A stretch of DNA of 43,922 nucleotides from NCBI GenBank assembly GCA_903929475.1, contig CAIYUV010000165.1:1-43922 (forward strand), read 5' to 3'. A program made the position numbers and the translations under genes. Position 1 is the stretch's first letter; each line of letters starts with the position of its first letter. Below, piece after piece: positions 4,782 through 16,882 of the stretch. The notes under the pieces are model-generated. The model was given only the letters and a program-made list of their open reading frames with translations, was not told the origin of the DNA and ran no database searches. This DNA comes from an uncultured Spartobacteria bacterium. Its GTDB lineage: Bacteria; Verrucomicrobiota; Verrucomicrobiia; Chthoniobacterales; Chthoniobacteraceae.

Positions 4782-6194
4782 ATGGGCGACGAAACATTGA
4801 ACACTCATCAAAAGGCGCTGCGGGTGAATCTCGACAAGCGGTGGTATGGAAGTTTTGCCGAAATCGGCGCGGGGCAGGAGGTGGTGCGGTGGTTTTTCCG
4901 AGTGGGCGGGGCGAGCGGCACGGTGGCGAAAAGCATGTCGGCCTACGACATGGCGGTGAGCGACGCCATTTACGGCACGGCGGATCGCTACGTCTCGCGC
5001 CCGCGTTTGCAGTCCATGCTCGATCATGAGTTCGGACTGAACATCGAGCGCCTCTCGGCATCGCGCGGAGACAGCACATCATTCTTCTCGTTCGCAAACA
5101 CGGTGGCGACGCGCAACTTCGCCGGAACGAACGAATGCCACGGCTGGCTCGGAGTGAAATTTCAAGCCCAGCCGCGCGATGAAGCCAGTCAGGTCATCAT
5201 CCACGTGCGTATGCTCGACACGGACGCTGCTGCGCAGCAGGAGGCGCTCGGCATTGTGGGCGTGAATCTTTGCTACGGCGCGTTCTTTCTCCATCACGAG
5301 CCCGAGGCGCTCGTGGAAAGCCTGCTCGACAGCCTCACGACCGGGCGCATTGAGATTGATATGATCGAATTCAGCGGGATCGAATTCCGCAACGTGGACA
5401 ACCGCCTCATGGCGCTGAAACTCGTGCAGGTCGGTCTCAGCGGTGCGGCGATGTTCGGGCCGGATCGCGTCGTGCTCCAGCCGAGCGAAGTTTTTTACCA
5501 CAAAGCCGTCCTCGTCGAGCGCGGCAGCTTCCGTCCCGTCACGCACGTGAACGTGGACATGATGCGTTGTGCGATGGAGAAATTCACCGCCGACGAAGCG
5601 CTGCAAGGCAAGTCCGTGGTGCAGGTGATGGAACTGACGATGCACAATCTTCTCGCGACCGGTGCCATGGATCGAAAGGACTTCCTCGCCCGCGCCGACG
5701 TGCTCAGCGCGTGCGGAATGACGGTCATGGTCTCCGACTACAGCGAATTTTTCCGTCTGGCCGCGTATCTCGCCCGCATCACGAAGGAGCGCATCGGCCT
5801 CGTGCTCGGTGTTCCCACTCTCGTCGAAATCTTCCAGGAAAAATACTACACCCAACTCCCCGGCGGTATTCTCGAAAGCTTCGGACGCCTTTTTAAAAAC
5901 GATCTCAAGCTCTTCGTCTATCCCCTCCAGGAACAGATCGGCGGCACACTCTCCACAGTGGACACGCTGCAAGTCGCGCCTGATCTTCAAAAACTTTTCG
6001 AGTATCTGCGTGACCGTGGCAGCTTTGTCGGGCTCGACAATTTCAAGCCCGAGTGTCTCTCCGTCTTCAGCCGCGACGTCCTCTCCCGAATTGCGGCGCG
6101 CGATGCTGAATGGGAAAAAATGGTGCCTGTCGCAGTGGCGGAGTTAATCAAAGCCCGCGGCTTTTTTGGCTACGGAAATGGTGCCCGCAAATGA
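4782..6194 (+). CDS. Conserved protein of unknown function, 470 residues
   Basis: I do not recognise the function. The protein has no signal peptide and no membrane helix, so it is probably cytoplasmic. Its composition is that of an ordinary folded protein, with segments such as HGWLGVKFQ, IIHVRMLD, VGVNLCYGAF, MIEFSGIEF and LKLVQVGLSG that look like beta strands of an alpha/beta core, and a C-terminal part (from about residue 280) with several predicted helices. ATG 4782 is the first start in a clean frame. The stop overlaps the start of the 42-residue membrane protein (ATGA), implying translational coupling and perhaps a shared role. Upstream is a 163-bp region shared with divergent tatA. 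Confidence 0.75.
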   Translation: MGDETLNTHQKALRVNLDKRWYGSFAEIGAGQEVVRWFFRVGGASGTVAKSMSAYDMAVSDAIYGTADRYVSRPRLQSMLDHEFGLNIERLSASRGDSTSFFSFANTVATRNFAGTNECHGWLGVKFQAQPRDEASQVIIHVRMLDTDAAAQQEALGIVGVNLCYGAFFLHHEPEALVESLLDSLTTGRIEIDMIEFSGIEFRNVDNRLMALKLVQVGLSGAAMFGPDRVVLQPSEVFYHKAVLVERGSFRPVTHVNVDMMRCAMEKFTADEALQGKSVVQVMELTMHNLLATGAMDRKDFLARADVLSACGMTVMVSDYSEFFRLAAYLARITKERIGLVLGVPTLVEIFQEKYYTQLPGGILESFGRLFKNDLKLFVYPLQEQIGGTLSTVDTLQVAPDLQKLFEYLRDRGSFVGLDNFKPECLSVFSRDVLSRIAARDAEWEKMVPVAVAELIKARGFFGYGNGARK

Positions 6195-6319
6195 GCGACG
6201 ACTGGCGCCAGCGCAACAACATGACCGGCCGCGAAGCCATGAAAGCCGCCGCCGCCATCCTCGGTCTCCTCGCCGCGTGTATCCTCGTTCTCTGGGTGCT
6301 CACGCGCTTCATGCGCTAG
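6191..6319 (+). CDS. Small single-span membrane protein, 42 residues
   Basis: The ATG at 6191 overlaps the TGA of the preceding gene (ATGA), the signature of translational coupling. The product has a charged N-terminus (MSDDWRQRNNMTGREAMK), one hydrophobic helix (about residues 19-39, AAAAILGLLAACILVLWVL) and a short basic C-terminus (TRFMR). This predicts an inner-membrane peptide with the N-terminus in the cytoplasm or periplasm undecided. I know no family for it. Its coupling to the 470-residue protein suggests it anchors or regulates that protein. Confidence 0.65.
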   Translation: MSDDWRQRNNMTGREAMKAAAAILGLLAACILVLWVLTRFMR

Positions 6320-6404
6320 GAAAAACGGTTTTCACATTTCGTTTCCGAATGCTTTACCCAAAGGGAGAAAGATCTGCCGCATTTCGACGGTAACTTTCAA
6401 AATA

Positions 6405-8294
6405 CTACTCGAGCTGCTTAGGCGGTCTTGACGATGGGAGAGCGGAAAGGCGGCCTTGGATTTCTTTCAGTTGTAGTTGCAAATTTGTTTGTTCGTCCGT
6501 GGATAAGCTCGGCGCACGCAGGCGTGATATAACTGAGTCACGGCGGCGGGTGAGGTCGCGGCGTTCCAATTCATGCCAGCAGTCCTCGGCCATCACTTTC
6601 GCTCCGGGAGGGACGGGGCGTTCGAGCAGGGAGCAAAGTGCGGCTTCTTCCGCAGTGCCGAGGGTGGAGAAGAAGCCGTTGAGCGAAGCGTTGTCATCGG
6701 GGCGCAAGTCGGTGCCGAGGATTTTGGCCAGCAGCGCGGAACTTTCCGTGCCGTCGTCGAGCACGCGCTCCCAAGGCTGTGCTTGCAGCCATGCGCGGGA
6801 GACTGCGTGCCGCAGCGCGAGAAGCACGAGCCACTGGTGGGTGGGGGGAAGTGCCAGGCGCTCGGGCTTCGGTGGCTTTGTTCCATCCGCGTTGGTGTCC
6901 CCCGTGTTTTTTGGGCGGACAATTCCGCGCAAGATTGCCGCGAACGTTTTTTCCACACGCGACTTGAACTGCTCCGGCAATTCCTTCGTTGGGCTTTTCT
7001 CGCCGGTGTGGACGAGCCGCGTGTATTCGGTGCGCCCGATTTCCAGAACGTCGGCGATTTGGCTCATCAGCGTTTCCTTTACGAAGCCGTCTTTCAGCAT
7101 TCGCGCATAGCCCGTCAGTTTCTCGGCAGCCGCCGCGCGTCCTCGCGGTGTGGAAAAATCGGATCGCTGGCTGAGTCGCGCGATTTGGAAATCGAAAAAA
7201 TCCTTCGCCTCGCCGATGCGTGACGCAAACGCCTCGCCGCCGTGCTTTCGGATCAACGAATCGGGGTCCTCGCCCGGCGGCATCTCCGCACAGCGCACCA
7301 ACAATCCCTCGCCGAGTAACTGCGACAGCGAACGCTCCGCCGCCTTTTCGCCCGCCGCATCCGCATCGAAACACAACACCACCTCCTCCACGTAGCGCTT
7401 CAAAATCCGCGCCTGCTGCTCCGTGAACGCCGTGCCCTGCGGCGCGATCACATTCTGCACGCCGTTTTCAAACGCCGTGATCAAATCAATCTGCCCCTCG
7501 CACACAATCGCCTGCTTCTTTTCGATGAGCGCGCGCTTTGATTTATTGAGGCCGAAAAGCACTTTTCCCTTCGTAAAAAGCAGCGTCTCCGGTGAGTTCA
7601 CATATTTCGCGGGGCTTTGCTCCGCATTCAGCACGCGCCCGCTGAAAGCGATCACTTCGCCCGTGTCGTTGCAGATCGGAAACATCACGCGCCCGCGAAA
7701 CCGATCATACAAACGCCCGCTGTCTTCCTTTTTTGCGAAGAGCCCGCTCGCCTCCAACTCCTCCACGTTGAACCCCTCGCGTTGTGCGTGGCCGAGCAGC
7801 GCGTCCCACGACTCGGGGGAAAATCCAATCTTCCACGACTTCGCCACCTCCGCCGACAGCCCGCGCATTTTCAAATAATCGCGCGCACCCTCCGCCGTCT
7901 TCCCTCGCATGAGTTGCGTGTGAAAAAACTCCGCCGCCACCGCGTGCAACGCCAGCACCCGGCGTCGCAAATCCGCGCGCTCTAAATCCTCGCCACTCAT
8001 CTGTGCATCGGGGATTTGAATGTTCGCTTTCTCTGCCAGCTTCCGCACCGCCGCGATGAATTCGATGTGCTCGTAATCCATCACAAACCGGAACACCGAG
8101 CCGCCCGCGCCGCAGCCGAAGCATTTAAAAATCTGCCGCTGCGGATTCACCGTGAACGATGGTGTGCGCTCCGTGTGAAATGGGCACAGCGCCTTGTAGG
8201 CCGGCCCCATCCGCTTCAATGGAAAATAGGAGCCAATCACCTCGACGATGTCATTCGCCGCGGCGATCTGCTCGATTATTTCCGGCGGAATCAT
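6405..8294 (-). CDS. dnaG: DNA primase
   Basis: Synthesises RNA primers for chromosome replication together with the replicative helicase. The 629-residue protein starts MIPPEIIEQIAAANDIVEVI. The N-terminal zinc-binding domain has CPFH and CFGCG (CHC2 type) within the first 70 residues. The catalytic core has the TOPRIM elements CEGQIDLITAF and VVLCFDADAAGEKAA. The C-terminal part (after about residue 430) is less conserved, as usual for the helicase-interaction region. ATG 8294 matches the family N-terminus; the open frame upstream runs into a repeat element. The usual neighbours rpoD and rpsU are absent. It is separated from the minus-strand PHP/glycosyltransferase gene by a large inverted repeat. 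Confidence 0.97.
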   Translation of the reverse strand: MIPPEIIEQIAAANDIVEVIGSYFPLKRMGPAYKALCPFHTERTPSFTVNPQRQIFKCFGCGAGGSVFRFVMDYEHIEFIAAVRKLAEKANIQIPDAQMSGEDLERADLRRRVLALHAVAAEFFHTQLMRGKTAEGARDYLKMRGLSAEVAKSWKIGFSPESWDALLGHAQREGFNVEELEASGLFAKKEDSGRLYDRFRGRVMFPICNDTGEVIAFSGRVLNAEQSPAKYVNSPETLLFTKGKVLFGLNKSKRALIEKKQAIVCEGQIDLITAFENGVQNVIAPQGTAFTEQQARILKRYVEEVVLCFDADAAGEKAAERSLSQLLGEGLLVRCAEMPPGEDPDSLIRKHGGEAFASRIGEAKDFFDFQIARLSQRSDFSTPRGRAAAAEKLTGYARMLKDGFVKETLMSQIADVLEIGRTEYTRLVHTGEKSPTKELPEQFKSRVEKTFAAILRGIVRPKNTGDTNADGTKPPKPERLALPPTHQWLVLLALRHAVSRAWLQAQPWERVLDDGTESSALLAKILGTDLRPDDNASLNGFFSTLGTAEEAALCSLLERPVPPGAKVMAEDCWHELERRDLTRRRDSVISRLRAPSLSTDEQTNLQLQLKEIQGRLSALPSSRPPKQLE

Positions 8295-8514: not shown

Positions 8515-10899
8515 CTACGTTGCATCCCACCAGCGTCGCGCGGCGTCGCGCCAGTCACGCGTCGAGACGGACAGGATCGCCGCCTCGCACATCCGTGCGC
8601 GCAGCGTGGAGTCGCCGACGAGTTGCGTCACCGCCTTTGCAAAATCCTCCACATCATTTCCCCTCGTGATGAGCCCGCTCACGCCATGCTCCACCAAATC
8701 CTTCGGCCCGCCTTGATCGGACACGACGCACGGCAGCCCGCACGCCTGCGCTTCGATGACCACATTTCCAAAAGTGTCCGTCGTGCTCGGAAAGACGAAC
8801 ACATCCGCGCTCGCGAATGCACATGCGAGTTCCTCGCCGCTGAGATAACCCGTGAAAATCGCGTCGGGCGCGAGCCTCCGCAACTCGGCGAGATATGGGC
8901 CGTCGCCAACGAATGCGAGCGCGAGTGATTTCCGATTCTGCATCCGCTCCCACGCCGCCACGATCACATCCAAATCCTTCTCCTTCGACACGCGACCCAC
9001 ATACAGCAAAACCGTCGCGCCCGCTGCCGCTCCACGCTTTTGCCAAAAGGAAACATCGCGCCGTTTCGCACTGAAGAGTTGCGTGTCGAGTCCGCGCGGA
9101 AGAATACGCAATTTCTCCGCCGGGATTCCGTTTTTGATCCAGCTCCCGCGATAGCTCTCGCTGTTCACCCAGACCGTATCCATCTGCGCGTAGAATGTGC
9201 GCATGAACGTCCACGCCAGCGTTTCCCATGAGCGGTCGTCGGTGAGGATGCGCACGTATTGTGGGAAGTCGGTGTGGTAGATGCCTGCCGTGCGCAGTCC
9301 GAGCAGTCGTGCGGCGAGCAGCGCAGTGAGGCCGACCGGACCTGGCGTGCTGATGATCACCTCGGTGAAACCTCCACGCTGGATGTAGTCGAGCATTTGC
9401 AAGACAGGCGGGAAGCTCAGCTTTTGCAGTTCGTATTCCGGCAGCTCGAACTCGCCGACAGGCTCGAAGTTTTTCAGCGGGATGCCCGTGATCGTGCTCG
9501 CCATTCGGCTTGTCACGACAGTGAGCTGGTCGCCGTTTTCGATGGTTGCGGCAGTCATGCGGCGGATGGTCGTTGCCACGCCGTTCACGTCTTCGAGCGT
9601 GTCCGTGAACCACGCACGCTTCGAGTTTTGGAGCATCGGCGCGGGTTCGCTGGAAAAAGCGCGACTGATTTCGCCCAGCCATGCGCGGTCCGGTGCGAGC
9701 TGTCGAAACGCGACAAAATACGGCGCTATGGAGAGCGCGACGGGCACAAGCATCGAGACATCCTGAATTGCTTCGACGAGCTTTCCGCTGCTCAGCTTTT
9801 TCACAAACGAAGTAAAGAACCGATAGAGCAGACGGTCGGCAAACATACACGCCGTGATGAATGCTCGACGCTCCGGCTCCGTCACCCCGCTGGTCGCTTT
9901 GGCTAGGAGCGTCTGCACTTCGCTATCGCGAAAAGTCGCCGCGAATTGCCGCCAGATGCTCGCATTCTTCGGCTTCGCCATCTCGAAGATTTGGCCGTTC
10001 ATGATTCCCTGCGCGAGGAACCCCATCTTTTCACCAAGCGAAAACTCCGTCGGATTCGACCCCTCCATGAAACGCGAAAACGCCTTACCTGCGAGACCGC
10101 CGCCCTTGAGAGCCGAGACTTTTTCCGATGCAAAGCGAAACACAGTTCCGTAAAGCCCGTGCGCATGCGCCAGTGGCGTGCCGCCCACGCCGCCCACCTT
10201 GCAGCGCCCTTCGCGGATCTCGCTGAGAAAAGCGGACGCATCCGCGACGTTCGCAGTCTCCGTCCACGCGTGTGCTGTGAAAAGCCCGCTGCGATCATTG
10301 CTGCCGCCGACGAGCACTTTCTCCCACGCTCGATCGTGGGTCGGCGCGAGGTTGTGTCGGTTCGACAACTCTTCGATTTTTCCCGGAGTCAGTCCTGCGA
10401 GGAGAAAGCGGGCCACTTCGCTCGTGAGCGCGTCGCGTGTGCCATTCACGCCCTCGAAATGCCGGAACAGCAACACGAGTTTCTCGATGTGCGCAGCGCT
10501 GATGCGTCCATCACCACGATGCAGCGGATGCGCCACTGCGTGCGCGAGTCCGCGTTCGGCGAGGTATCGCTGGAGGTCGTAGATGTTCTCGCGCTGCCGT
10601 TGAATTTCCCGGTGCTCCGCCTCGTTCAATCCCCACACGAGCAGATGCACCTTCGCGCGATCCTCGGGGAATTGCGCCGTCACTTCCTCGCTCAGAAAAA
10701 CACCCGGCTTTCCCGCAACAGCGAGGCAGCCATCCAGCGTGTCGCGATCTGTAAGCGTAAAATAATCCATCCCGCGCGCGCGTGCCTTTTCAAAAAGTGC
10801 CGCCGGCTCCGCATAGCTCGCAGGCAGACCGACTCGCCGGAAAAGCCATTCTGCCGCCGGGCCGCTGTGTTTCGAGTGCAGGTGCAAATCAGCGCGCAT
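8515..10899 (-). CDS. PHP-domain phosphoesterase fused to a GT4 glycosyltransferase
   Basis: A 794-residue fusion. Residues 1 to about 260 form a PHP (polymerase/histidinol phosphatase) metal-dependent phosphoesterase domain: MRADLHLHSKHSG with the HxH metal ligands (His6, His8), DYFTLTDRDTLDG near residue 45 and AHAVAHPLH near 120. A mostly helical linker (about 260-430) follows. Residues about 430-794 form a GT-B family-4 glycosyltransferase: VNGVATTIRR loop, YHTDFPQY, LLYVGRVSKEKDLD, FVGDGP and TDTFGNVVIEAQACG, where Asp708 and Glu716 occupy the EX7E positions as in SqdX/PimB-like enzymes. Such GTs add sugars to lipids; acceptor and donor are unknown. ATG 10899 is chosen because the PHP motif starts directly after it. 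It follows the CPXCG gene by 56 bp and is probably last in the fabF operon. Confidence 0.9.
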   Translation of the reverse strand: MRADLHLHSKHSGPAAEWLFRRVGLPASYAEPAALFEKARARGMDYFTLTDRDTLDGCLAVAGKPGVFLSEEVTAQFPEDRAKVHLLVWGLNEAEHREIQRQRENIYDLQRYLAERGLAHAVAHPLHRGDGRISAAHIEKLVLLFRHFEGVNGTRDALTSEVARFLLAGLTPGKIEELSNRHNLAPTHDRAWEKVLVGGSNDRSGLFTAHAWTETANVADASAFLSEIREGRCKVGGVGGTPLAHAHGLYGTVFRFASEKVSALKGGGLAGKAFSRFMEGSNPTEFSLGEKMGFLAQGIMNGQIFEMAKPKNASIWRQFAATFRDSEVQTLLAKATSGVTEPERRAFITACMFADRLLYRFFTSFVKKLSSGKLVEAIQDVSMLVPVALSIAPYFVAFRQLAPDRAWLGEISRAFSSEPAPMLQNSKRAWFTDTLEDVNGVATTIRRMTAATIENGDQLTVVTSRMASTITGIPLKNFEPVGEFELPEYELQKLSFPPVLQMLDYIQRGGFTEVIISTPGPVGLTALLAARLLGLRTAGIYHTDFPQYVRILTDDRSWETLAWTFMRTFYAQMDTVWVNSESYRGSWIKNGIPAEKLRILPRGLDTQLFSAKRRDVSFWQKRGAAAGATVLLYVGRVSKEKDLDVIVAAWERMQNRKSLALAFVGDGPYLAELRRLAPDAIFTGYLSGEELACAFASADVFVFPSTTDTFGNVVIEAQACGLPCVVSDQGGPKDLVEHGVSGLITRGNDVEDFAKAVTQLVGDSTLRARMCEAAILSVSTRDWRDAARRWWDAT

Positions 10900-10955
10900 A
10901 TCTCCGCGCACTCTGCGCGAGCGCCTGCACGTGGTGCGAGAATCTTCAGCGCCAA

Positions 10956-11141
10956 TCAGCCTCGGCTGCTCTCGACGGCGATGACTTCGCCCGCTTCGCA
11001 CTCGATGCGGAGTTCGATGGGGCGGCAGCAGACGGTGCAATCCTCGACTGTGGTGTGACTGCCTTGCGAGGTGTCGGCGGTGCTCGGAAATATTTCGCCG
11101 CAATACGGGCACTCGACTTCGATCTCGACGACGTAATCCAC
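10956..11141 (-). CDS. CPXCG-type cysteine-rich small protein
   Basis: A 61-residue protein with CPYCGE at residues 11-16 and a second pair CTVCC at about 35-39, ending in basic and acidic residues. Two Cys pairs this far apart suggest a small zinc ribbon. The family is a conserved set of short bacterial proteins without a settled function. The start is GTG 11141, four bases after the rsfS stop, with a weak AAGAG upstream. Close packing indicates co-transcription with rsfS. Confidence 0.8.
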
Positions 11142-12101: not shown

Positions 12102-13349
12102 CTATCCCTCGAAGGCGCGGACGACGAGCGTCACGTTGTGGCCGCCGAATCCGAAGCTGTTGTTGAGGGCGACGCGCACTTTGGCCTCGCGGGCGGTGTG
12201 CGGGACAAAGTCGAGGTCGCACTCTTCGCCGGGGTTATCGAGGTTGATGGTCGGCGCGATGATTCCTGTCTGGATACTCTTCACGCAGACGATGGTTTCC
12301 ACGACGCCCGCAGCTCCGAGCAAATGGCCGGTCATGCTCTTGGTGCTGCTCACGGGGACGCGCTTTGCGTAGTCGCCCATCACGGCTTTGACGGCGCGGA
12401 CTTCCGCCACGTCGCCAACCGGGGTGGATGTGCCGTGTGCATTGATGTAGTCCACTTCGGAAACGTTGATGCCTGCTTTGTGGATGGCGATGCGCATGGA
12501 ACGCTGGGCCTGCTCGTGGTTAGGGAGCGGTGCGCTCATGTGGTAGGCGTCGGTCGTCATGCCATAGCCGGCGACTTCCGCGAGGATGTTTGCGCCGCGC
12601 GCCTTCGCGTGTTCGAGTTCCTCCAACACGACGATGCCCGCGCCTTCGCCCATGACGAAGCCGTCGCGATCTTTGTCCCACGGACGGCTGGCGCGCGTGG
12701 GGTCGTCGTTGCGGGTGCTGAGTGCCTTCATCGCGGCAAAACCCCCGATGCCGAGCGGGACGATGGCGCTTTCACTTCCGCCTGCGAGGAAAACATCGGC
12801 GTCGCCTTCGCGGATGAGCCGCCAAGCTTCGCCGACCGAGTGCGCGCTCGTGGCGCAGGCGCTGACGGGTGCGTAGCTCGGGCCTTGCAAGCCGTGCTCC
12901 ATTGCGACCATGCCGCCCGCCATGTTGGTAATGAGCATCGGGATCATGAAAGGCGAGATGCGGCCCGGACCTTTCTCCATGTAATTGGTGTGCTGATCCT
13001 CGGTGGTTTTCAGTCCGCCGATTCCGCTGCCGATGATGCAGCCGAAACGCTCGGGGTCTTTCACCTCGGAAAAGCCAGCGTCCGCCATCGCGCCCTTCGC
13101 GGCGGCGATGGCGAGATGCACAAAGCGGTCACTGCGGCGCACGTCCTTCGGCACTTTGAAAAACTTCACGGGATCGAAATCGCGCACCTCGCCCGCGATT
13201 CGGCAGTCGAACTTCGCACAATCGAAAAGCGTGATGGGCCCGATGCCGCTTTTGCCTGCGATGAGGTTGCTCCAAAGGGTCGGCACATCATGCCCCAAGG
13301 GCGTGATGGCTCCCATGCCAGTGATGACGACTCGACGATTGCTGCTCAT
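12102..13349 (-). CDS. fabF: 3-oxoacyl-[acyl-carrier-protein] synthase II
   Basis: Elongating condensing enzyme of type II fatty-acid synthesis. The 415-residue protein starts MSSNRRVVITGMGAITPLG. It has the nucleophile Cys165 in PVSACATSAHS, the active-site histidines in INAHGTSTPVGD and KSMTGHLLGAAG, and the C-terminal NNSFGFGGHNVTLV. ATG 13349 is the family start. No acpP or other fab gene is next to it. It is the first gene of an apparent minus-strand operon (fabF-nadD-rsfS-CPXCG-PHP/GT) and is divergent from the LuxE-LuxC-like gene, with a 96-bp region between them that must hold both promoters. Confidence 0.96.
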   Translation of the reverse strand: MSSNRRVVITGMGAITPLGHDVPTLWSNLIAGKSGIGPITLFDCAKFDCRIAGEVRDFDPVKFFKVPKDVRRSDRFVHLAIAAAKGAMADAGFSEVKDPERFGCIIGSGIGGLKTTEDQHTNYMEKGPGRISPFMIPMLITNMAGGMVAMEHGLQGPSYAPVSACATSAHSVGEAWRLIREGDADVFLAGGSESAIVPLGIGGFAAMKALSTRNDDPTRASRPWDKDRDGFVMGEGAGIVVLEELEHAKARGANILAEVAGYGMTTDAYHMSAPLPNHEQAQRSMRIAIHKAGINVSEVDYINAHGTSTPVGDVAEVRAVKAVMGDYAKRVPVSSTKSMTGHLLGAAGVVETIVCVKSIQTGIIAPTINLDNPGEECDLDFVPHTAREAKVRVALNNSFGFGGHNVTLVVRAFEG

Positions 13350-13445: not shown

Positions 13446-15623
13446 GTGCAGTCCTTTCAAAAAGACAACCTCCTCGCCGAATACGCGGCCATCGAGCAGC
13501 GCGTGCTGGCTGCCTTGCGCGACGATTTACGCGGGGAGGAGTTCGGCGCGCTCGCGCTGGAGATTCATGCTTTTCAGCTTCGCTGGAATGAGCCGCTCGC
13601 CCGCTGGTGCGCGACTTTTCCCGCGCCGAAAAACTGGCGTGAAATCCCGGCTGTGCCGCAGGCGATGTTCAAGCGGTTCCGCGTCGCGTGCTTTCCGCCG
13701 GAGCTGGCGGGAAAAACTTTCCTCACCAGCGGCACGACCGGCGAAACGCGCGGCGCGCATCATTTGCACAACACGACGCTCTACGACGCGGCGGTGCTTG
13801 CGGGCTGGCGTCGGCTTGCGCTGCCGAAAGCGGTCCCGCTCATTGTGGCGCCGTCGCCCGCCGATGCGCCCAATTCTTCGCTCTCGCACATGATGGGCCT
13901 GCTCGCGGGTGAGGTGGGGCAGTTCATCGCTCGAAGCGACGGCTCGCTCGATTTCGCACGCGCAGCGGCTGTGCTGGAAAGGAATTTTTCCAACGGACAG
14001 CCCGTCGCACTGCTCGGCACCGCGCTGGGCTTTCTGAATTTAATGGAGGGTTGGGGAAGTGCGAGCCCGCGATTGTGCGATGGTTCGTTTCTCGTCGAGA
14101 CGGGCGGTTTCAAAGGCAGCGGGCGGGAGATTGAAAAGAGCGAACTTTACGCCCGCCTGAGCGAGTTTTTTGGGCTAAAAGAGGGCGCGATTTGGAATGA
14201 ATACGGGATGTGCGAACTCGGCTCGCAGTTTTATACCCGCGGCCTCGGCGCTGCGCACACGGGCGGACCGTGGGTGCGTGCGATGGTCGTTTCGCCGGAG
14301 AGCGGGCGCGAGGTTACCGTTGGTGAGCGGGGTGTGTTGCGCATCTTCGATCTCGCCAATCTCGGCAGCACGCTCGCGGTGCAGACGGCGGATTTCGCCG
14401 TGCTGCGCGATGAAGGTTTCGAGTTGCTCGGACGCGATCCCGCTGCTGTCCCGCGCGGCTGCTCGCGTCAGGCGGATGAAAAGCGCGGCGCAGCCTCGGC
14501 ATCGGTCGTAGTTCAGCGTGCGTCCGAACACGCTCCGCTCGCGGGCGGAAATACGCAGGCGCGTTGTGTTGCGCTCGCGGCGGCAGTGAACCGCTTTCCT
14601 TTTCTCGGCGAAGTCAGCGCCGATTCCCTGCGTGCGCTCATCGCCGCAGAGCTTGGCCACGCCGAGGCGCTCGACCGCTTTATCCCGCACGGCGCGCATC
14701 ATTCCCGCGCCGTGGCACCCGCGACCATCCTCCACATCCTCAGCGGAAATACTCCCGCCGCTGCGCTCCAGTCATTGCTGCGCGGTCTGCTCCTCGGCTC
14801 GCGCAATCTTTGCAAACTCCCATCCAGCGGACTGCCGGAGGTCGCGCAATTCCTCGCCGCATTGCCGCCGGAGCTGTGCGCGCTCGTCGAAGTATCCGCG
14901 CAACTCCCCGACGACTGGCTCGCGCTCGCCGACGCGATCATCGTCTTCGGCAACGACGAAACCATCGCGCATTTCCGCGCGCTCGCGCAGCCGTGGCAGG
15001 CCTTCATCGCCCACGGCCACAAGCTCAGCTTCGGCATTGTTTTCGATGACCCGGCTTTCGCCAGCGCCGCCGCCGCCGCGCGCGATGCGTCTGTTTTCGA
15101 TCAGCAGGGCTGCCTCTCGCCGCACGTCATCTACGTTCGGGAAAGCGGCACTTTCACCGCGAGGGCATACGCGGAACGAGTCGCAGCGGAGATGGCCGTT
15201 TTTGAAAAACACACCCCGCGCGGCCCGCTCACGCTCAGCGAGGCGAACAGCATCCGCACCCTTCGCAACGAGACCACATTCCGCGTTGCGAACGGCGAGC
15301 CGCTCGCGCTCTTCGCCAGCGCTGATACCGCGTGGACAGTCATCGCCGATTCCACGCCCGGCTTTCCCTCATCTCCGCTCAACCGCGTGCTGTTCATCAA
15401 GCCACTCCCCGCCGACCTCGCCGACACGCTCGCGCCAGTCCGCGCCCATCTCAGCACATGCGGAATCTGCCCCACCACGCACGAACACGCGGAATTTGCC
15501 GCCAGTCTCGGCCTCACCCGCATCTGCCCGCTCGGTAAAATGCAGCAGCCCCCGCTCACATGGCATCACGACGGAGCCCCCGTGCTCGCCCCCCTCGTGC
15601 GCTGGGTGGATTGGGAAAATTAA
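13446..15623 (+). CDS. Fused LuxE-like acyl-protein synthetase and LuxC-like acyl reductase
   Basis: A 725-residue single open frame. Residues about 1-345 match LuxE-type acyl-protein synthetases: TSGTTGETRGAHH (adenylate-forming motif, 94-106), WNEYGMCELGSQ (250-261) and a terminal PRGCS (Cys339, at the place where LuxE carries its acyl-accepting cysteine). Residues about 400-725 match LuxC acyl reductase: ILHILSGNTPAAALQSLLRG, NLCKLPSS, FGNDETI, AHGHKLSFGIVF and FDQQGCLSPHVIYV with the likely catalytic Cys556. In luminous bacteria LuxE activates a fatty acid and LuxC reduces the acyl group to aldehyde. No luciferase genes (luxAB) are in the window. The start is GTG 13446, the first start in frame; no Shine-Dalgarno site is visible. 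It is divergent from fabF. Confidence 0.87.
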   Translation: MQSFQKDNLLAEYAAIEQRVLAALRDDLRGEEFGALALEIHAFQLRWNEPLARWCATFPAPKNWREIPAVPQAMFKRFRVACFPPELAGKTFLTSGTTGETRGAHHLHNTTLYDAAVLAGWRRLALPKAVPLIVAPSPADAPNSSLSHMMGLLAGEVGQFIARSDGSLDFARAAAVLERNFSNGQPVALLGTALGFLNLMEGWGSASPRLCDGSFLVETGGFKGSGREIEKSELYARLSEFFGLKEGAIWNEYGMCELGSQFYTRGLGAAHTGGPWVRAMVVSPESGREVTVGERGVLRIFDLANLGSTLAVQTADFAVLRDEGFELLGRDPAAVPRGCSRQADEKRGAASASVVVQRASEHAPLAGGNTQARCVALAAAVNRFPFLGEVSADSLRALIAAELGHAEALDRFIPHGAHHSRAVAPATILHILSGNTPAAALQSLLRGLLLGSRNLCKLPSSGLPEVAQFLAALPPELCALVEVSAQLPDDWLALADAIIVFGNDETIAHFRALAQPWQAFIAHGHKLSFGIVFDDPAFASAAAAARDASVFDQQGCLSPHVIYVRESGTFTARAYAERVAAEMAVFEKHTPRGPLTLSEANSIRTLRNETTFRVANGEPLALFASADTAWTVIADSTPGFPSSPLNRVLFIKPLPADLADTLAPVRAHLSTCGICPTTHEHAEFAASLGLTRICPLGKMQQPPLTWHHDGAPVLAPLVRWVDWEN

Positions 15624-15661: not shown

Positions 15662-16498
15662 TTACTGCGGCGGGCTGATGCTGCCGTCCGGGAAGGTGAT
15701 GATGGTCTTCGGTAGGGCGGCGCGCAATTCGCGCAGCGCGGCGGCGGGGATTTTGTAGCAGCGGTAGAGGTCGAGATCTTGTAGGCTGGTGAGGCCCTTG
15801 AGGGCGTCCACGTTTTGCAGCGCTGGGCAGCGGTCGAGGTAGAGCCTTTGAAGGGTGGTAAGGCCCTTCAGGCCGTCCACGTTTTGCAGCGCGGTGCAGG
15901 TGCTGAGGGCGAGCGTTTGCAGGGCAGTGAGGCGCTTGAGGGCGTCCACGTTTTGCAACTCGTCGCTGTCGGTAAGGTAGAGCTTTTGCAGGTCGGTGAG
16001 GCCTTTGAGGGCGTCCACGCTTTTCAGCGCTTTGCAGTTGACGAGGCCGAGCTCTTGCAGGCCGGTGAGGCCCTTGAGGGCGTCCACGTTTTGCAGCGCG
16101 GTGCTGCCGCCGAGGTCGAGCGTTTGCAGGGCGGAGAGGCCCTTGAGGGCGTCCACGTTTTCGTCCTTACATTTCGTAGCATACAATTCCGTGGGATTGA
16201 GATGGTGGAGCATTTCGCGGTAGCGGCCAATGTCGGGGACTTTTCTCATTTCAAGCACGCGGGGGTGCTCGCCCCATGTCTCCTTTTTGAGCGCATTGTG
16301 CCAGTCCTGCTTGATGAGGCTGAGGGTGTCTTCGCACTCCCACGTGAACCCCGCCTCCTTCGCCTCGCGGACGGCGTTGTTGTAGGCGTTTAGCTTCCAC
16401 ACCTGCCAGCCGATGCCGCCGAGGAAGAGGACGATGAGCACGCACCAAAGCTTCTTCCCAAAGCTGCTCTCGCCATGCGTGGTGTGCCCGTCTTTCAC
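15662..16498 (-). CDS. Membrane-anchored leucine-rich-repeat protein
   Basis: A 278-residue protein with an N-terminal anchor (about residues 15-33, KKLWCVLIVLFLGGIGW) and a polar segment to about residue 105. About six leucine-rich repeats of 23 residues follow, of the form xLQNVDALKGLTxLQxLxLxxC, encoded by a 69-bp DNA repeat. The C-terminus (RELRAALPKTIITFPDG) caps the repeats. LRRs of this kind bind proteins; no ligand can be inferred. The open frame extends to 16810, but that part consists of palindromic repeat sequence and a terminator. I therefore place the start at GTG 16498, with AAGG five bases upstream. The uniform repeats suggest recent internal duplication. Confidence 0.75.
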   Translation of the reverse strand: MKDGHTTHGESSFGKKLWCVLIVLFLGGIGWQVWKLNAYNNAVREAKEAGFTWECEDTLSLIKQDWHNALKKETWGEHPRVLEMRKVPDIGRYREMLHHLNPTELYATKCKDENVDALKGLSALQTLDLGGSTALQNVDALKGLTGLQELGLVNCKALKSVDALKGLTDLQKLYLTDSDELQNVDALKRLTALQTLALSTCTALQNVDGLKGLTTLQRLYLDRCPALQNVDALKGLTSLQDLDLYRCYKIPAAALRELRAALPKTIITFPDGSISPPQ

Positions 16499-16566
16499 GC
16501 CCGCCTTGTGCCGCGTGCGGGGAGTGTTGGCAAGGCGGGGATGGGCGGGAATGTGCCCTGCGTGGA

Positions 16567-16763
16567 GCACCAACGGTGCGCGGACAAGCCAGCCCAGGGC
16601 ATCGCCCTGGGAACCCGGTCGTAAAAAAACCAAAGCCCCAAAGGGGCGGCCACAATTGTCGCGCCCCGTTGGGGCTTTGGTCATCGTGGGCGGGGGACCC
16701 AGGGCGGCGACCGCGCGGCGCGCGGCCGTGCCCGGGGCTGGCTTGTGGATGGGCCGTTGGCCC
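16567..16763. repeat. Composite palindromic (REP/BIME-like) element
   Basis: Parts in order: palindrome GCACC-AAC-GGTGC (16567-16579); long-range arm ACAAGCCAGCCC (16584-16595); palindrome CCCAGGGC-ATC-GCCCTGGG (16593-16611); hairpin 16630-16680; returning arm GGGCTGGCTTGT (16735-16746, perfect 12 bp); palindrome GGGCC-GTT-GGCCC (16751-16763). The same order of parts is found at 25078-25290 with different but still paired stems. A third copy of the outer motif was not seen. Confidence 0.85.
16622..16680 (-). terminator. Strong intrinsic terminator inside the composite element
   Basis: CCAAAGCCCC (16630-16639) pairs with GGGGCTTTGG (16671-16680), with further inner pairing of GGGGCG with CGCCCC. 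On the minus strand the stem is followed by a run of seven T (plus-strand A run 16623-16629). Any minus-strand transcript from proS reading through the 21-bp array would end here. Confidence 0.75.
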
Positions 16764-16882
16764 GCCACACCACGGATCGTCCGCTGCCTCCGGGGCCCCC
16801 GGCTCTGCAAAGCAAAGCCCCCCTGAGGCTCATGCGGAATAGCTTTGTTGGCGGGGATGAGTCTGCGCTTTTCAAGAGGGGA

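Follow-up and report, generated by a model that had tools for sequence, protein, structure and literature searches.

The window, meaning the whole stretch of 43,922 nucleotides analysed here, from an uncultured Spartobacteria bacterium, encodes a protein in which a LuxE-type acid-activating half and a LuxC-type reductase half form one chain. We consider this fusion probably a single-chain carboxylic acid reductase for queuosine synthesis, which would convert 7-carboxy-7-deazaguanine (CDG) to an aldehyde; amination of that aldehyde would give preQ1 without passing through preQ0. The link between the joint presence of LuxE and LuxC (LuxE+LuxC) and queuosine synthesis is strong, and as genomes with the pair are always without QueF, the fusion probably supplies a precursor of a modified tRNA base, by a route not yet described, and not a fatty aldehyde. 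Slightly less firmly, we expect that LuxE-LuxC replaces QueC and QueF in a second route to preQ1 in many Verrucomicrobiota, with a single-chain form in one genus, and that non-luminous LuxE-LuxC pairs more widely include reductases of N-heteroaromatic acids in cofactor or tRNA-base metabolism, with a deazaguanine as substrate here and a thiamin precursor in a clade with TPP riboswitches.

Two halves in one open reading frame

The frame is open over 725 codons, and both sequence motifs and both catalytic cysteines were located in it (Table 1), which bears out the original prediction that a LuxE-type and a LuxC-type half share one frame. The reductase half, predicted to belong to PF05893, matched that family above the Pfam cut-off (residues 391-720, E = 2.8e-55) and carries the catalytic Cys556. 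The activating half of the window protein gave no match to PF04443, the family named for it, over the curated Pfam cut-off, but matched the NCBIfam LuxE model (E = 7.2e-5) and the LuxE chain of PDB 7xc6 (7xc6_E; E = 1.8e-6). A split homologue (L033:4986-6095) does pass the PF04443 cut-off (E = 4.8e-10).

Table 1. Features of the window, and plasmid loci with a TPP riboswitch
Feature	Position	Strand	Basis
Single-chain LuxE-LuxC carboxylate reductase (probable), 725 aa	13446..15623	+	open frame, GTG start, profile matches
LuxE-type acid-activating half, residues 1-340	13446..14465	+	NCBIfam, 7xc6 LuxE chain, tree, fold
TSGTTGETRG nucleotide-binding motif, residues 94-103	13725..13754	+	motif read from translation, alignment
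Cys339 codon (PRGCS, residues 336-340)	14460..14462	+	aligned with C-terminal LuxE cysteine
Inter-domain linker, residues 336-367	14451..14546	+	disordered in model; length varies among fused proteins
LuxC-type reductase half, residues 368-725	14547..15620	+	Pfam, 7xc6, tree, fold
Cys556 codon (FDQQGCLSPH, residues 551-560)	15111..15113	+	aligned with LuxC nucleophile
fabF, divergent neighbour, not counted in the system	12102..13349 (start about 13349)	-	profile searches, locus comparison
Plasmid LuxE-LuxC loci with TPP riboswitch	L073, L074, L075, L076, L077, L091, L092, L094, L095, L096		

Structure prediction agreed with the expected LuxE and LuxC folds in both halves. In the AlphaFold model, 7xc6_A was the best match to the LuxC half (Z 28.5 over 353 residues), with other aldehyde dehydrogenases at Z of about 22 or less. 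Because the LuxC half filled the match lists of the full chain, the LuxE half was folded alone. The resulting model fits 7xc6_E at 2.0 A over 115 of its 118 resolved residues, and its best full-length matches were PaaK-type acid-AMP ligases and EhpF (Z 17-21, up to 20.9), several of the best-matching PaaK-type structures having aromatic acids bound. These aryl-acid ligases differ from the window enzyme in sequence (9-15% identity) and are not fused to a reductase, and many of them make CoA thioesters. Cys339 was invariant across all homologues aligned. It sits in the linker, where the LuxE fold ends, a stretch that is disordered in the model and, by inference from that model, may act as a swinging arm.

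Fused and split forms

The protein was found in nine of the ten genomes of the window's genus, each time in a single uninterrupted frame; the tenth genome, without the protein, is 76% complete. The nearest named relative belongs to a Chthoniobacteraceae MAG (93% identity). Outside this genus, relatives carry the halves as separate genes, either adjacent and overlapping or located on different contigs. The overlap in related genera is what might have pointed to two genes joined by a frameshift or an assembly error. There is next to no chance of this, however, and the survey of relatives for split and fused forms contradicts it, as the single open frame recurs in nine genomes, on different contigs and at 56-94% identity. 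The length of the linker differs between the fused proteins. The LuxE tree places the fused forms of the genus in one clade (support 100/97), and the LuxC tree does so with lower support (79/86), suggesting that the fusion probably arose once in this group.

Queuosine genes in 57 relatives

The joint product of QueD and QueE is CDG, which is a carboxylic acid, and we therefore compared the presence of the next enzymes, QueC and QueF, with that of LuxE+LuxC in 57 relatives. The results showed that none of the 22 genomes with LuxE+LuxC has QueF, against 23 of the 30 with neither gene, and that full-score QueC follows the same pattern (0/22 vs 24/30). Weak or partial QueC-like matches occurred in three LuxE+LuxC genomes (G010, G048 and G053), and the fragment in G048 is possibly a true QueC. 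Among the seven genomes with neither LuxE+LuxC nor QueF, four are 73-84% complete, and in one (G032) QueC is truncated where the contig starts. The other two, reduced genomes of 0.9 Mb, are also without QueA and any PTPS protein. QueA was found in 54 of the 57 relatives, including every LuxE+LuxC genome (as a fragment in G009), which indicates that preQ1 is still used in these genomes.

PTPS proteins of two kinds occur in the relatives, one long and the other a short QueD of the E. coli type. The short QueD was present in 20 of the 22 LuxE+LuxC genomes, and the long PTPS never occurred with LuxE+LuxC. Two genomes (G040 and G042) combine the short QueD with QueC and QueF, so the route cannot be read from the QueD type alone. 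QueA and a short QueD that passes the NCBIfam cut-off (98.3 vs 89.25 bits) are both present in the genome from which the window comes. In ten LuxE+LuxC genomes, among them G003 of the window's genus, a gene matching the QueE model lies directly upstream of QueD, and in two distant lineages (L033 and L038) LuxC is followed by QueD, a PTPS-family gene. Within the window, no queuosine gene was found near the fusion, and no preQ1 riboswitch reached the Rfam gathering score near LuxE/LuxC or QueE-QueD in the loci examined.

Two genomes with LuxC and no LuxE (G024 and G045) retain both QueC and QueF. In the LuxC homologue of G045 (L062:903-1982, minus strand), a leucine replaces the catalytic cysteine, and the gene is perhaps a decaying remnant. 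In L038, an MFS transporter gene (6024-7268, plus strand) lies between LuxE and LuxC, ahead of QueD. Further PTPS-like proteins besides the two main kinds were seen in L121 (G038), L126 (G054) and L129 (G042), and in G042 and G052 three PTPS-like stretches in one frame adjoin a weak QueF-like match.

Independence of the association and the wider sample

Most of the genomes compared are MAGs. The QueA gene tree (INDEPENDENCE) was used as a stand-in for the species tree. LuxE+LuxC changed state 11 times among 46 usable genomes on this tree, and its presence equalled the absence of QueF with no exception. Seven genomes were left out of this test. Four were incomplete or truncated at a contig edge; the other three had LuxC as the only one of the pair and lacked QueF, and their LuxE may simply not have been assembled. 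When the four incomplete or contig-edge genomes were put back, Fisher's test gave 4e-10. Independent, well-supported pairs on the QueA tree agreed in six of six cases (p = 0.031).

A QueF comparison run after the queuosine hypothesis had been set down covered a wider sample of 289 genomes across the phylum. QueF was over the cut-off in 229 of them and absent from all ten with LuxE+LuxC of this clade (hypergeometric 8e-8 with kinship ignored; G000 and G038, which are among these ten, had also been part of the first sample). A weak QueF-like match was present in G060. Within genus g60, one genome (G295) has LuxE+LuxC without QueF, and two (G267 and G306) show the reverse.

It is decidedly unlikely that the association with queuosine genes reflects descent or transfer and not function. 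The type of QueD does switch along with LuxE+LuxC, and within the order there are only the six well-supported independent contrasts. Nevertheless, the pattern recurs in families f1, f4, f5, f6, f15, f16 and f19 and holds even when LuxE and LuxC lie on separate contigs, and a link without function would leave the production of CDG and the use of preQ1 with no step to connect them.

A proposed second route to preQ1

In luminous bacteria, LuxE activates an acid and passes the acyl group to LuxC, where it is reduced to an aldehyde. The adenylation, the two acyl transfers and the reduction proposed here follow from this known working of LuxE and LuxC, and CDG is proposed as the substrate because of the gap in the pathway. 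The substrate, the aldehyde product, the amination step and the channelling are what we infer, and they would combine as follows. The LuxE half would adenylate CDG, the product of QueE, with ATP, and the activated acyl group would move to Cys339 on a mobile tail, the linker. The tail would then deliver it to the LuxC half, at Cys556, for reduction by NAD(P)H to 7-formyl-7-deazaguanine. A putative aminotransferase would convert this aldehyde to preQ1, which would be put into tRNA and elongated by QueA. Such a route would share with QueC and QueF its start (CDG), its end (preQ1) and its genomic slot between QueE and QueA. The enzymes, however, are unrelated, and thioester reduction with transamination would take the place of nitrile formation and nitrile reduction, so that the nitrile preQ0 would be avoided.

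No aminotransferase was consistently linked to the LuxE/LuxC or QueD/QueE loci examined. This would suit an enzyme acting at another step of 7-deazaguanine or pterin metabolism, for example on 6-carboxytetrahydropterin, the product of QueD, or supplying a formyl- or hydroxymethyl-deazaguanine to some other process in cells that obtain preQ1 by salvage, as would the position of LuxC beside QueD and not QueE in L033 and L038. We regard such a role as unlikely, since QueE, the user of the QueD product, is retained beside QueD in ten LuxE+LuxC genomes, QueA still needs preQ1, and QueF and full-score QueC are missing together exactly where LuxE+LuxC occurs.

A recurring neighbour cluster (c8) was considered as the aminotransferase and rejected, as it consists of argininosuccinate and adenylosuccinate lyases. 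In G060, a class III aminotransferase gene cut by the contig start (L087:3-566, plus strand) lies directly upstream of LuxE-LuxC. It had no close match among the other loci examined, and we treat this candidate for the amination step as a lead only. Replacement of FolB was also considered and rejected, FolB being nearly universal.

Synthesis of preQ1 has been described as needing QueD, QueE, QueC and QueF (PMC11130926), and surveys take QueC and QueF as the mark of queuosine-making organisms (PMC6593275). Such surveys would score LuxE+LuxC genomes as unable to make queuosine. Should the proposal hold, this known pathway would acquire a branch of non-homologous enzymes that works by different chemistry, and a function would be assigned to LuxE and LuxC beyond light production. 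A natural single-chain enzyme that reduces heteroaromatic acids would also be of use in biocatalysis. We found no paper tying LuxE or LuxC to queuosine or thiamin in the literature searched, a set that lay largely outside subscription papers.

Relation to other LuxE-LuxC groups

Plasmids of Azospirillum, Pantoea, Pseudomonas, Priestia, Niallia, Lactiplantibacillus and Levilactobacillus carry adjacent LuxE and LuxC genes. In the annotated records an SDR gene comes next, and several of the loci also have an NMT1/THI5-type ABC transporter or an NCS2-type permease. A TPP riboswitch lies upstream in nine plasmid loci over the gathering score, with the Priestia one below it (49 bits, E = 5e-7). Read from gene content and regulation, these operons suggest salvage of an oxidised thiamin precursor from acid to aldehyde to alcohol.

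As the closest named relatives in the plasmid collection (29-36% identity over about 90% for the operons of Azospirillum, Pantoea, Niallia and Lactobacillaceae plasmids), they raise thiamin-precursor salvage as a role for the window gene too. This role is exceedingly improbable and was rejected. ThiC is present in the window's genome, the partner SDR family is absent from the relatives, and the TPP-riboswitch operons form a clade apart from the window family in both the LuxE and the LuxC tree. These operons further differ in having split genes, with SDR and transporter genes in the operon, and thiamin regulation; in the window, no riboswitch was found at the fusion gene. A riboswitch near Methylacidiphilum-like copies was set aside because it belongs to thiC, with unrelated genes between.

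An independent LuxE-LuxC fusion of 840-848 aa was found in L066 (8188-10731, minus strand) and L089 (7511-10030, plus strand). An AMP ligase and an Fe-alcohol dehydrogenase adjoin it, and the L089 copy lies inside a surface-glycan locus. Glycan-locus LuxE-LuxC proteins, split or fused, come from the same two families as the window protein but differ from it in belonging to another clade, in matching PF04443 strongly and in having a longer linker. One genome with the glycan-type fusion (G216) keeps QueF.

The fabF neighbourhood and the fatty-aldehyde reading

The original prediction placed the fusion divergent from fabF and took this to link it to fatty-acid synthesis, with a free fatty aldehyde made in cis. 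The divergent position is correct for the window, and formation of an aldehyde in cis is plausible. The functional link to fabF was rejected, however, since the adjacency occurs in only two of the nine fused loci, those of the window and G007, which are 94% identical. A fatty-acid substrate and fatty aldehyde product likewise found no support: the gene occurs where QueF and full-score QueC are missing, and PaaK-type ligases, several of which take aromatic acids, were the best structural models for the LuxE half.

It is very unlikely that the enzyme is a fatty acid reductase that releases free long-chain aldehyde and is tied to fabF. Both halves are homologous to the LuxC-LuxE bioluminescence complex (PDB 7xc6), with both catalytic cysteines aligned, and fabF does face the fusion. 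The window enzyme nevertheless differs from that complex in being one chain and not two, in being without the N-terminal 100 residues of LuxC and in its link to queuosine genes instead of luciferase. The two are also distant in the trees, 7xc6 sitting on a very long branch of the LuxE tree, and the NCBIfam lux equivalog cut-offs were not approached (63.8 of 750 bits for LuxC and 21.9 of 550 for LuxE).

Where LuxE and LuxC are unlinked, their neighbours (TPR, ExbB and ExbD near LuxE; RadC near LuxC) gave no pathway clue. Downstream of the fusion in the window, a gene for a leucine-rich-repeat protein (15662-16810, minus strand) shares only 59% identity with its counterpart in G007, a relative that is otherwise 94% identical, which indicates that it is changing fast. 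A further gene of the window (8515-11112, minus strand) appears by eye to join a PHP-type N-terminal part to a glycosyltransferase, and in L034 an MGDG-synthase-like plus PHP protein adjoins LuxC.
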